A stretch of DNA of 55,097 bases from an uncultured Phycisphaerae bacterium (GTDB lineage: Bacteria > Planctomycetota > Phycisphaerae > Sedimentisphaerales > Anaerohalosphaeraceae): contig CALEDR010000023.1 of NCBI GenBank assembly GCA_937949545.1, positions 1-55,097 on the forward strand, given 5' to 3'. The position numbers and the translations under genes were made by a program. Position 1 is the stretch's first letter. Each line of letters opens with the position of its first letter. The notes under the pieces were generated by a model that did no database searches, was not told the DNA's origin, and saw nothing but the letters and a program-made list of their open reading frames with translations. Shown here in pieces: positions 5,481-10,337 of this stretch.

Positions 5481-6410
5481 TTACAAGGGTTTTGCATTTC
5501 GTTCCCAAAAGACGCCGTCTGTGTAGCCCTGTATGGTTTTGTCCGTATCCGCCAGCAGGAGACGTTTTTCCGCCAGACAGGCAAACAGGGGGTCAATTTC
5601 GATGCCAATATAGCGTCGGTTCAGCTTTTTTGCAACCACGGAAGTGGTTCCGGAGCCGAGAAAAGGGTCCAGGACAACATCGCCGGGATGGGTGGAGGCC
5701 AGGAGGATTTTGGCCAGCAGTTTCTCCGGTTTCTGTGTAGGATGGTCCGTGTTTTCCGGCATGGACCAAAACGGTACGGTCAGGTCGGTCCAGAGGTTGG
5801 AGGGGGCGGTCAGTCGAAAAGGGCCCTCGGCGGCGGGTATCCAGTCTTTTGGGGTTCCGTCCGGATGGGTATAGGGGGCCAGGACGCGCCGTTTGAGTTT
5901 GACGGCGTCCACGTTGAAGGTGTACCGGTCGGAAACAGTGCAGAACCAGATATCCTCCGAGCAGTTTTTCCAGTTGGTTTTGGCCCCGCGGCCTTTTTCC
6001 CGCTCCCAGGTGATGCGGTTGCGGATGATGAAATATTTCTCCGCGACGGTCTGGACGGCGGAAGAGCCGCGCCAGTCTGAACAGATATAAATCGAGGCGG
6101 TCGGCTTCAGAAGCCGCAGGAGCGGCGCCAGCCAGGCGTCCAGCCGGGCGGCATACTGCTCCGAAGAAGTTTTTTTGAAGATTCGTCCGTTGAAGGCCTT
6201 GTTCAGGTTGTACGGCGGGTCCAGAAAGAGCAGGTCTGCGATGCCGTCCGGCAGAAACCGGCAGGCCTTCTGCATATCCTGACAGATGGTGGTATCCAGA
6301 ATCTCCTTACCCCGGACCGGGCGATCGAGCCGGATAAGCCGTTTGGCATACGCCTGCCTTTCCGTTTCTGTCAGGCCGATCGTCCGATTTTGTTCAGCCC
6401 GCTGCTTCAT
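5481..6410 (-). CDS. Site-specific DNA methyltransferase (N4-cytosine or N6-adenine), orphan
   Basis: A 309-residue amino-methyltransferase that would transfer a methyl group from S-adenosylmethionine to an exocyclic base nitrogen in DNA. The catalytic motif IV DPPY is at about 64-67 (FLDPPYNLNK). The SAM-binding motif I (DPFLGSGTT) is near 248-256, so motif IV precedes motif I, the beta-class order. No restriction endonuclease gene is adjacent, which suggests an orphan enzyme. It lies between leuD and leuB on the same strand, 48 bases from leuB. The ATG at 6410 is used; a TTG three codons upstream is possible, and neither has a clear ribosome binding site. The recognition sequence cannot be read from the protein. 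Confidence 0.88.
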   Translation of the reverse strand: MKQRAEQNRTIGLTETERQAYAKRLIRLDRPVRGKEILDTTICQDMQKACRFLPDGIADLLFLDPPYNLNKAFNGRIFKKTSSEQYAARLDAWLAPLLRLLKPTASIYICSDWRGSSAVQTVAEKYFIIRNRITWEREKGRGAKTNWKNCSEDIWFCTVSDRYTFNVDAVKLKRRVLAPYTHPDGTPKDWIPAAEGPFRLTAPSNLWTDLTVPFWSMPENTDHPTQKPEKLLAKILLASTHPGDVVLDPFLGSGTTSVVAKKLNRRYIGIEIDPLFACLAEKRLLLADTDKTIQGYTDGVFWERNAKPL

Positions 6411-6560
6411 AAAGAACAATAAAATAAAAAGGCAAAAGAGAAAAGGAAAAAGTCCAAGGCAAAGGGAAAAACTATCGTTTCCCTTTACACGTTAATACAC
6501 CGGAGGCAAGAATTTTTGAAACATAATCGCTGCTTGAGTTTCTTGACAGATTTTTCCTTT

Positions 6561-8541: not shown

Positions 8542-10104
8542 TCACAGGACCGCTTTGGGCTGGTCTGCCGAACCGTTCTTTTCCGCGGCGACCATCCGGT
8601 TGATGGCGTCCACATAGGCCTTGGCACTGGCCTCAATGATGTCGGTAGACACGCCGCGTCCAATGAAGCGCCGTCCGTGTTCGTTCTGAATCCGCACGGT
8701 GGTTTCGCCGAGAGCGTCTTTGCCTTCCGTGACGGCGCGGATGGAGTAGGAATCCAGTTTGGGGGCCTTGCCGGTGGCCTGGCGGATGGCTTCATAAGCG
8801 GCATCCACCGGACCGTCACCGCAGGCCGCGGCCTGGAGGATTTCCTGACCGGCGCGGATGCGTACGCTGGCCGTTGGAATGGTTCCGGTTCCGCAGGCAA
8901 CCAGCAGGTACTCCAGCTGATAGGTCTGCTCGGTTGTGCGGACTTCATCGCTGATGATGGCGGCGATATCTTCGTCAAAGATTTCTTTTTTGCGGTCGGC
9001 CAGATCCAGAAATTTCTGATAGGCGACTTCAACCTCGTTGTCCGAAAGGTTGTAGCCCAGCTGCCGGCAGCGGTCCACAAAGGCGTGCCGTCCGGAATGG
9101 CGGCCGAGCACAACGCGCGAACCCTCCAGACCGATCATCTGCGGGGTCATAATTTCATAAGTTTCGCGTTTCTTGAGGATGCCGTCCACGTGGATGCCGG
9201 ATTCGTGGGCAAAGGCGTTTTTTCCGACGATGGCTTTGTTGGGCTGAATGACAAAGCCGGTCAGCTGGGAAACCAGCTGGCTGGTGCGGTAAATCTGCCG
9301 GGTATCGATGCCGGTGGTCAGATTGGCGAAGAAATCCTGACGCGTATGGATGGCCATTACGATTTCCTCCATGGCGGCATTGCCGGCCCGCTCGCCGATG
9401 CCGTTGATGGTGCACTCAACCTGCCGGGCCCCGTTGCGCACTCCCGCCAGCGAATTGGCCGTGGCCATTCCGAGGTCATTGTGGCAGTGCGTACTGAGAA
9501 CCGCCCGTTCAATGCCTTTGACGTTTTGTTTGAGTTTGGCGATGATTTGGCCGTATTCGTACGGAAGGACGTATCCGACCGTATCGGGAATATTCAGCGT
9601 TGTAGCTCCCGCTTCGATGACGGCGGCAAGGATTTCGTAGAGAAACGACAGTTCACTCCGGCAGGCATCCTCCGGAGAGAATTCAACATCGTCTGTGAAT
9701 TGACGGGCCATTTTCACCGCCTCGACGGCCATTTTGATCACCTGGTCGGGTTTTTTGCGGAGTTTGTACTCCATATGAATGGGGCTGGTGGCGATGAACG
9801 TATGGATTCGCCGTCTGGAGGCGGCCTGGAGGGCCTTGCCGGCGGCGGTAATATCTTTTTCATTCGCCCGAGCCAAGGCGCAGATGACGGGTCCCTGAAC
9901 TTGTTCGGCGCAAAGACGGGTGGACTCAAACTGCGCCGGGGAGGATATCGGAAAGCCCGCTTCAATGACATCCACACCCAGTTTGGCCAGCTGATGAGCA
10001 ATCTCCAATTTTTCACTGATGGAAAGAGCGGCGCCCGGGGATTGTTCCCCATCACGGAGCGTGGTATCAAAAATCAAGACTTTTTCTGTCGAATCTTTTG
10101 TCAT
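8542..10104 (-). CDS. leuA: 2-isopropylmalate synthase
   Basis: First committed enzyme of leucine synthesis, condensing acetyl-CoA with 2-oxoisovalerate. At 520 residues it has the usual two parts. The N-terminal TIM-barrel carries FDTTLRDGEQSPG near residue 11 and the metal site STHCHNDLG. The C-terminal regulatory domain (about 390-510) contains GDGPVDAAYEAI, where leucine binds for feedback inhibition in this family. The upstream region carries a possible leader peptide with clustered leucine codons (10224-10304) and a promoter-like sequence at 10143-10172, so expression may respond to leucine supply as well as the enzyme being feedback-inhibited. Confidence 0.96.
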   Translation of the reverse strand: MTKDSTEKVLIFDTTLRDGEQSPGAALSISEKLEIAHQLAKLGVDVIEAGFPISSPAQFESTRLCAEQVQGPVICALARANEKDITAAGKALQAASRRRIHTFIATSPIHMEYKLRKKPDQVIKMAVEAVKMARQFTDDVEFSPEDACRSELSFLYEILAAVIEAGATTLNIPDTVGYVLPYEYGQIIAKLKQNVKGIERAVLSTHCHNDLGMATANSLAGVRNGARQVECTINGIGERAGNAAMEEIVMAIHTRQDFFANLTTGIDTRQIYRTSQLVSQLTGFVIQPNKAIVGKNAFAHESGIHVDGILKKRETYEIMTPQMIGLEGSRVVLGRHSGRHAFVDRCRQLGYNLSDNEVEVAYQKFLDLADRKKEIFDEDIAAIISDEVRTTEQTYQLEYLLVACGTGTIPTASVRIRAGQEILQAAACGDGPVDAAYEAIRQATGKAPKLDSYSIRAVTEGKDALGETTVRIQNEHGRRFIGRGVSTDIIEASAKAYVDAINRMVAAEKNGSADQPKAVL

Positions 10105-10142
10105 CTTTGTATCTCCGGAAAAGGCAAATTTTAAGAGGATTT

Positions 10143-10172
10143 ATTATGCCAAAAAGGACACAAAAAATCCAA
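10143..10172 (-). promoter_or_regulatory. Possible proximal promoter for leuA
   Basis: On the minus strand a TTGGAT (-35, at 10167-10172) is followed after 18 bases by CATAAT (-10, at 10143-10148). It is 38 bases upstream of the leuA start. If used, it would bypass the leader peptide, so leader-dependent control would apply only to the distal promoter. Confidence 0.4.
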
Positions 10173-10216
10173 GGGGAAAAGAAAAGCGATAAGTCAAGAT
10201 ATGTGTATTGGAGTTT

Positions 10217-10257
10217 TGCGCCGCTACGGGCGCAGCAGAAGCAGGCCCAAAAGGGCC
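10217..10257 (-). promoter_or_regulatory. Two small hairpins overlapping the leucine codons and stop of the leader
   Basis: In the transcript, hairpin 1 is GGCCC-TTTT-GGGCC (10257-10244), lying on the first leucine codons. Hairpin 2 is TGCGCC-CGTAGC-GGCGCA (10234-10217), spanning the last leucine codon and the stop. A ribosome stalled on the leucine codons would melt both. No U-run follows hairpin 2, so a classical intrinsic terminator is not visible. Confidence 0.45.
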
Positions 10258-10304
10258 GGATGATTTTCCGACATGATTCGGTTTGTTCGCATAACCGTAC
10301 TCAT
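10224..10304 (-). CDS. Candidate leucine leader peptide (leuL-like)
   Basis: A 26-codon ORF reading towards leuA, ending ALLGLLLLRP and a TAG stop. Six of the last nine codons before the stop are leucine (CTT, TTG, CTG, CTT, CTG, CTG). It lies in the untranslated stretch between the upstream gene and leuA, 119 bases before the leuA start. Leucine-rich short peptides preceding leu operons act as leucine sensors in enterobacteria by ribosome stalling. Two small hairpins overlap the leucine codons and the stop. Against it, there is no clear ribosome binding site before any of the three in-frame ATGs, and no obvious U-tailed terminator follows. Too short for ordinary ORF calling. Confidence 0.55.
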   Translation of the reverse strand: MSTVMRTNRIMSENHPALLGLLLLRP

Positions 10305-10324
10305 TTGAACAATCTATCGTTCAA
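10305..10324. repeat. Inverted repeat immediately before the leader ORF
   Basis: TTGAAC (10305-10310) and GTTCAA (10319-10324) form perfect 6-base arms around an 8-base spacer, directly abutting the ATG of the leader ORF. It could be an operator for a dimeric regulator or a small 5' stem in the leader mRNA. Confidence 0.45.
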
Positions 10325-10337
10325 AACACAAGGAGGT

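Follow-up and report, generated by a model that had tools for sequence, protein, structure and literature searches.

A putative leucine-sensing leader peptide without an intrinsic terminator upstream of leuA in the planctomycete order Sedimentisphaerales

The leuA gene of an uncultured Phycisphaerae bacterium of the order Sedimentisphaerales is preceded by a short leucine-rich ORF which, judging from its sequence and from that of its relatives, very probably serves as a leucine sensor by means of stalled ribosomes. The complete reading that we tentatively favour, with a confidence just short of even, is that of a leucine leader-peptide attenuator of leuACD(B) in which the terminator would have been exchanged for Rho and a second promoter, P2. 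The sensor is ordinary; the unusual part is what replaces the terminator.

The window, that is, the whole stretch of 55,097 nt that was analyzed, is one contig of a 2.84-Mb assembly of 52 contigs. The gene order on its minus strand is leuA-leuC-leuD-(DNA methylase)-leuB, and the Pfam domains are consistent with leuA, leuC, leuD and leuB. The DNA methylase gene (N6_N4_Mtase; 5481..6419, minus strand) lies inside the leu cluster, between leuD and leuB. Between leuA and an ORF of 222 aa further upstream, which has no Pfam match, lies a gap of 264 nt that holds the leader ORF. When the window and ten loci of relatives were searched with Rfam (T-box, riboswitches, known leaders), no match at gathering score was obtained; three sub-threshold matches in the leader region (E 1.2 to 5.1) lay far under the gathering scores. 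The preliminary description of the region upstream of leuA had recognized the ORF and the hairpins, had probably placed the start codon too early and had missed the promoter P1, the C-rich tract and the CATAAT element (Table 1).

Table 1. Features of the leuA upstream region in the window, listed from the leader promoter to leuA.
Feature	Coordinates	Strand	Basis
P1, putative promoter of the leader: -35 TTGTGT (10331..10326), 17 nt, -10 TCAAAT (10308..10303)	10303..10331	-	
Leader ORF, re-read, 22 codons, MRTNRIMSENHPALLGLLLLRP-stop, probably leaderless	10224..10292	-	comparison with relatives
Hairpin H1, GGCCC-TTTT-GGGCC, around the first two Leu codons	10244..10257	-	fold prediction
Four Leu codons (CTG CTT CTG CTG), proposed sensing run	10233..10244	-	sequence, codon comparison
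Hairpin H2, TGCGCC-CGTAGC-GGCGCA, stop codon in loop	10217..10234	-	fold prediction, relatives
Stop codon TAG of the leader, in H2 loop	10226..10224	-	
Tract rich in C and poor in G that follows H2, candidate Rho utilisation site, approximate limits	10176..10216	-	
P2, promoter-like: TTGGAT (10172..10167), 18 nt, CATAAT (10148..10143)	10143..10172	-	
Shine-Dalgarno GGAG of leuA	10113..10116	-	sequence
leuA, 2-isopropylmalate synthase	8542..10104	-	ORF list, Pfam

The ORF first proposed, 10224..10304 on the minus strand, is present letter for letter (MSTVMRTNRIMSENHPALLGLLLLRP-stop) and bears, as had been claimed, six leucine codons among its last nine (LLGLLLLRP). Its length of 26 codons is probably too great. 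Its ATG (10304..10302) runs into the -10 box predicted at 10308..10303, so that translation more probably starts at 10292, where the following ATG in frame lies; this gives 22 codons, a length that falls inside the range of the leaders of relatives. The run of four leucine codons lies between hairpins H1 and H2 and shares one or two bases with each.

Searches for leuA covered 59 genomes, including that of the window, and 55 upstream regions were read. A short leucine-rich ORF is found in 46 of them, with its stop codon 101 to 288 nt before leuA and with endings such as GLLLLRP, ALLLLRR, LALLLRP and LLLLALRG. The nine regions left out correspond to a duplicate genome (L058), three contig ends (L021, L024, L056), a leuA gene without leader (L037, genome G032), a degenerate leader (L040), a leader of family f5 mis-picked by the script (L044) and two regions (L050 and L052) in which, by eye, neither leader nor CATAAT is present. 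These latter two (family f4, genus g30) carry, shortly upstream of leuA, a perfect inverted repeat of 8 bp, GCGTTTTT..AAAAACGC.

A covariance model built from 38 of the 46 leaders matches 112 of the 161 genomes of the order, at one site each except in three, and 56 of the 66 good genomes (at least 90% complete and at most 5% contaminated). Some of the 49 genomes without match represent cut contigs or the f5 variant. Among 392 genomes drawn across the phylum, the model matches nine genomes of the order and five more weakly (E 0.0016 to 0.0085), the latter being about chance level. When 40 further matches were fetched, leuA was located downstream in 38; the two others (L219 and L222) have no leuA in the fetched stretch. 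Extra, weaker matches away from the leuA leader occur in G049 (C9, C2 at 49081, C12), G112 (C91), G041 (C2) and G034 (C70, that is, L219), and could be further leaders or chance. In a contig scan dominated by distant phyla, one named record, Phycisphaerae bacterium CS2-K091 (L062), carries the leader by eye.

With a threshold of five leucines in eight residues, isoleucine counting as half, a leucine-rich ORF is found in 33 of the 54 regions scored upstream of leuA in the order, versus a mean of 0.9 and a maximum of 3 in 20 rounds of shuffling. The C-terminal leucine run and the arginine are conserved, the N-terminal half of the leader poorly so. Codons were counted in 73 leaders (seven of the 38 fetched matches with leuA downstream were dropped from the count by its regular expression). 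The codon right before the arginine encodes leucine in all 73, as CTG or TTG, which are the forms that pair in H2; the second codon before it encodes leucine in 57, isoleucine in 15 and threonine in one, and the third encodes leucine in 66. Five leucine codons, all except TTA, are used at these three positions. In the sequences compared, leucine is thus kept while its codons vary, the pattern of selection on the amino acid. Compared with the codon usage of 20 window ORFs, 42 leaders draw mostly on the common leucine codons. Genera g12 and g13 (L008, L009, L010, L030, L055) have isoleucine instead of leucine at the second and/or third position before the arginine, and their leaders may respond to a wider set of branched-chain amino acids. 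The preliminary description had pointed to a conserved ORF, hairpins and synonymous variation of leucine codons as what should be sought in relatives; all of them are found in the order. Its refuting condition, relatives devoid of a leucine-rich ORF at this place, thus does not hold.

The two hairpins said to overlap the leucine codons are both predicted. The leader region of the window folds moderately better than its shuffles (z -2.1; 5 of 200 as good). The sequence of H1 differs among species and its stem is kept: the summed fold energy over 42 leaders is -343, versus -265 (sd 14.4) for dinucleotide shuffles and -260 (sd 14.1) for codon shuffles, with 0 of 100 of either kind as low, and z is below -1 in 20 of the 42 single leaders. 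H2 has the form GCGCC..GGCGC in 42 of 46 leaders, and the remaining four, which belong to family f5, have AGCCC..GGGCT; the invariance of H2 in alignment A2, which comprises 38 of the 42 GCGCC-form leaders, is partly by choice. RNAalifold detects H2 and not H1 in the whole alignment, our guess being that this is because H1 shifts register between species. The stop codon of the leader lies inside H2 in 52 of 73 leaders, and at H2 or up to two codons past it in the other 21. Two leaders (L209 and L215) have a similar GC-rich hairpin of about 40 nt inserted in the H2 loop, the stem being kept and the leader ORF being longer. H1 and H2 share no bases, and no alternative pairing of the antiterminator type emerged in the leader. 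Pairing of the start region with the leucine run, which would form a third helix, gave a z of 3.3 over 77 leaders and of 2.5 within families (11 of 1000 permutations). This helix is weak, negative in family f2 and hardly present in the window species, and it was not used further.

Promoter P1 is weak in the window species (7 of 12 consensus matches), and a promoter scan of the window alone gave nothing at its threshold; in relatives it is stronger and resembles sigma-70 promoters. A -10 box with five or six of six matches precedes 38 of the 46 leaders, versus a mean of 4.5 and a maximum of 10 in shuffles, a result somewhat favoured by a choice of start codons that took the promoter into account. 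The distance from the end of the best box to the ATG is 6 to 10 nt in 44 of 46 leaders; the promoter pair picked by the script in L004 is implausible. A Shine-Dalgarno-like motif is found before the leader in 4 of 46 regions and near the leuA start in 43 of 46, the two search windows being slightly different. It had been stated that no ribosome binding site precedes the leader, and no Shine-Dalgarno-like site is indeed seen there in the window, probably because initiation is leaderless, the mRNA beginning at or near the AUG.

No U-tailed terminator had been seen after the ORF. None is present on the minus strand of the window, and this is a property of the order. A strong intrinsic terminator (dG at most -12 kcal/mol, within 300 nt of leuA) is found in 0 of 84 leuA upstream regions of the order, all of them leader-bearing (the 46 leaders plus 38 further model matches), versus 42 of 49 regions elsewhere in the class, taken with or without leader from 49 of the 62 genomes outside the order with a match (L226, a 50th region, was examined and stands outside the 49). 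At a dG of -8, the order shows 8 of 46 and 1 of 38, near the shuffled level (means 5 and 2.8), and terminators located between leader and leuA amount to 2 of 46 and 0 of 38. The scans of window and order also rule out an intrinsic terminator hidden further downstream.

Outside the order, the same gene is preceded at the same place by a leucine-rich short ORF, in some cases with a -10-like box just before the ATG (L233, L234, L235). A leucine-rich ORF followed by a terminator is found in 34 of the 49 class regions; under a stricter threshold, the ORF is found in 21 of 49, versus 0.25 in shuffles. Unlike the leaders of the order, those of the class have a strong terminator, lack CATAAT in 47 of 49 regions and are not depleted in G. 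The layout of leucine-rich ORF plus terminator also stands before leuA in L230 (genome G294), which belongs to another class. There, two tandem leucine-rich ORFs, each with a terminator-like hairpin, form what looks like a double attenuator. The stretch TGCGCC..GGCGC, found in 0 of 6 class-level regions checked, occurs once in L230, within the second of these ORFs. Judging from this distribution rather than from a tree, the ancestral state was probably a leucine attenuator of the terminator type, and the terminator was probably lost in the order.

In the order, P2 is made up of a T-tract, a motif resembling GTGGAA and the CATAAT box, and it typically lies 60 to 80 nt past H2. CATAAT is found between -130 and -18 of leuA in 59 of the 84 regions (3.7 expected) and, outside the order in the same class, in 2 of 49 (0.7 expected). 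NATAAT lies between leader and leuA in 42 of 46 regions (9.3 expected) and in 31 of 38 (9.0 expected). TATAAT occupies the place of CATAAT in 9 of 84 regions (5.5 expected), near chance, and therefore P2, if it acts as a promoter, would belong to a particular and perhaps weak type. Its -35 does not resemble TTGACA, and a C as first base, conserved in CATAAT, is uncommon among sigma-70 -10 boxes. Where leuA is distant (L010, L013, L019), the spacing between P2 and the leader is preserved; where it is the leader that is distant (L022, L025), P2 stays close to leuA; and a similar element, CACAAT, persists in L037, which lacks the leader. This is as expected of a promoter. These comparisons make it likely that P2 is a promoter. 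Assignment to a sigma-54 or ECF promoter was rejected on a misfit of spacing, assessed by eye against the consensus, and an RNA hairpin within P2, seen by eye in some species and absent in others, was dropped. A search for the P2-like pattern elsewhere in its own genome gave nothing, a result of little weight as the pattern missed the own copy too.

The tract that follows H2 contains 29% C and 6% G over about 35 nt in the 46 leaders, and is almost G-free 10 to 19 nt past H2; in the 38 further regions, 30 nt contain 28% C and 5% G. When order and class are compared, with sets anchored at H2 and at the stop codon, respectively, G is 5% in the order versus 23% in the class and C is 32% in both, so that what changes is a loss of G, C not being enriched. 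The tract ranks in the top 5% of the 32-nt windows of its own upstream region in 30 of 46 leaders and is unremarkable in five (rank worse than 0.16). Well-studied Rho sites are longer than the tract found here. A high C:G ratio is expected of a Rho site, according to PMC12121999, and the rho gene is present. Because no terminator is found, the tract has a high C:G ratio and rho is present, Rho would be the most economical read-out of the leucine leader, a possible assignment that we hold at less than even confidence. It is weakened by the shortness of the tract (about 35 nt), by a C content not above that of the class, and by the fact that no structure was found by which a stall would shield the transcript or the tract from Rho.

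According to the reading that we favour, mRNA from P1 would start at or a few bases from the AUG, and a ribosome would translate the 22-codon ORF without a Shine-Dalgarno sequence. When charged tRNA-Leu is scarce, the ribosome would stall in the leucine run and keep H1 and H2 open, and the stalled ribosome would let P1 transcripts continue into leuA. When leucine is ample, the ribosome would reach the stop codon in H2 and leave; H1 and H2 would then close before a naked C-rich tract, and Rho would load on the tract of the ribosome-free leader and end the P1 transcript. P2, placed between leader and leuA, would supply basal leuA mRNA. The ORF, its leucine run, H1, the nearly invariant H2, the promoter-like P1, the lack of a terminator, the depletion in G and the CATAAT element rest on comparison, and from them we infer leaderless initiation, stalling, the direction of the response, Rho and the promoter activity of P2. 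Leucine-sensing attenuation by ribosome stalling, as it had been first suggested, is supported by the conserved ORF, the leucine run, the hairpins and the layout found in the class. Among the points against the attenuator are the weakness of P1 in the window species and P2 itself, through which some of the transcription of leuA would escape the leader.

That CATAAT takes the place of the terminator (in the order, 59 of 84 regions have the former and 0 of 84 the latter; in the class, 2 of 49 and 42 of 49) would also fit an arrangement, unlikely in our view, in which the leader transcript is not the main source of leuA mRNA: transcription from P1, gated by leader translation, hinders or helps P2, and P2 makes the leuA mRNA. 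It would be equally unlikely that a terminator-less attenuator gates a promoter, the sensing unit (P1, leaderless ORF, both hairpins and G-poor tract) ending right before CATAAT and translation setting the P1 flow that reaches and alters P2, with no terminator being formed in the leuA mRNA. The place that CATAAT keeps near leader or leuA despite insertions and the CACAAT of the leaderless L037 are in line with such an arrangement, and a distant precedent is that of chlamydial YtgR, in which an alternative promoter is acted upon in trans (PMC7755916). On the other side, P2 is a putative promoter, P1 is weak in the window species and no cis-acting case was found in the literature searched.

It is quite unlikely that control is translational, the leader RNA masking the leuA Shine-Dalgarno sequence unless a ribosome stalls in the leucine run. 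In the actinobacterial LEU element, as outlined in PMC1262725, the leucine run has been proposed to pair with the leuA Shine-Dalgarno sequence, and a pseudoknot to form; as a leuA leader devoid of a clear terminator, that element comes closest to the leader of the order, which it also resembles in its leader peptide with a leucine run and its unsettled mechanism. Leader, leucine run and leuA Shine-Dalgarno sequence are all present in the order, and pairing with the latter is slightly better within species both for the leucine run (z 1.4, reached by 27 of 300 permutations) and for the C-rich tract (z 1.1, 38 of 300). Both values are within chance, unlike what would correspond to the LEU stem; in cross-species permutation tests, pairing of the leader with the leuA Shine-Dalgarno sequence, the C-rich tract or P2 was not significant, and the C-rich tract pairs less with P2 than when permuted (z -2.1). 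Moreover, the leader stop codon can be up to 288 nt from leuA, with insertions, and a P2 transcript would be devoid of the masking strand.

We regard as very unlikely an effect on mRNA stability, with stalled ribosomes or the two hairpins shielding the P1 transcript in its 5′ part and the tract serving as a nuclease site: closed hairpins do adjoin a tract of A, C and U, but the exchange of terminator for CATAAT would be left unexplained. Still less probable is that the short peptide itself acts, as a small hydrophobic protein, the RNA features being incidental; its conserved C-terminal leucine run and arginine would agree with this, and the poor conservation of its N-terminal half, the maintenance of H1 as a structure and the position before leuA argue against it. 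Short ORFs are common, but a chance ORF is refuted by the order-wide conservation, the shuffles and the codon pattern, and its probability is negligible.

Classical leucine leader-peptide attenuators include leuL of enterobacteria. The leader of the order resembles classical leucine attenuators in being a short ORF of some 20-28 codons, with a leucine run, upstream of leucine biosynthesis genes. It differs from them in what it lacks, namely a terminator of the intrinsic type (0 of 84 regions), a ribosome binding site and any mutually exclusive antiterminator that we could find, and in the promoter-like element that comes after it. The ilv-leu operon of Staphylococcus aureus, as described in PMC5794164, has a leucine-rich attenuator peptide of the terminator type. 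Leaderless cysteine-responsive short ORFs control the genes behind them in mycobacteria (Canestrari 2020, as summarized in PMC9031893); they share with the leader of the order a run of one amino acid and a leaderless start, which is probable here, and differ from it in the amino acid, leucine here, and in the phylum. The E. coli uORF toiL, as presented in PMC12121999, couples stalling at a leader to Rho-dependent termination; it senses antibiotics and acts via the topAI ribosome binding site, and what it would have in common with the leader of the order is stalling plus Rho. In chlamydial trpRBA, YtgR attenuation acts on an alternative promoter in trans, as outlined in PMC7755916. A codon run for the amino acid of the pathway is linked there, and would be linked in the order, to an alternative promoter before biosynthesis genes; the chlamydial case uses a repressor in trans, whereas the leader of the order lies in the same transcript. 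A survey of leader genes that included Planctomycetes mentions neither leucine nor leuA in its main text (PMC4833913), and our literature search, which was largely of papers available without subscription, found no report of leader-peptide regulation of leuA in planctomycetes.

The covariance model allows annotation of such leaders, and the leader ORFs of the order suggest leaderless leaders outside actinobacteria. Taken with their relatives, they form a natural series: sister groups have a textbook-like attenuator, and the order has a similar sensor, no terminator and a new element. This makes testable the question of how a stalled-ribosome sensor works on after loss of the terminator.
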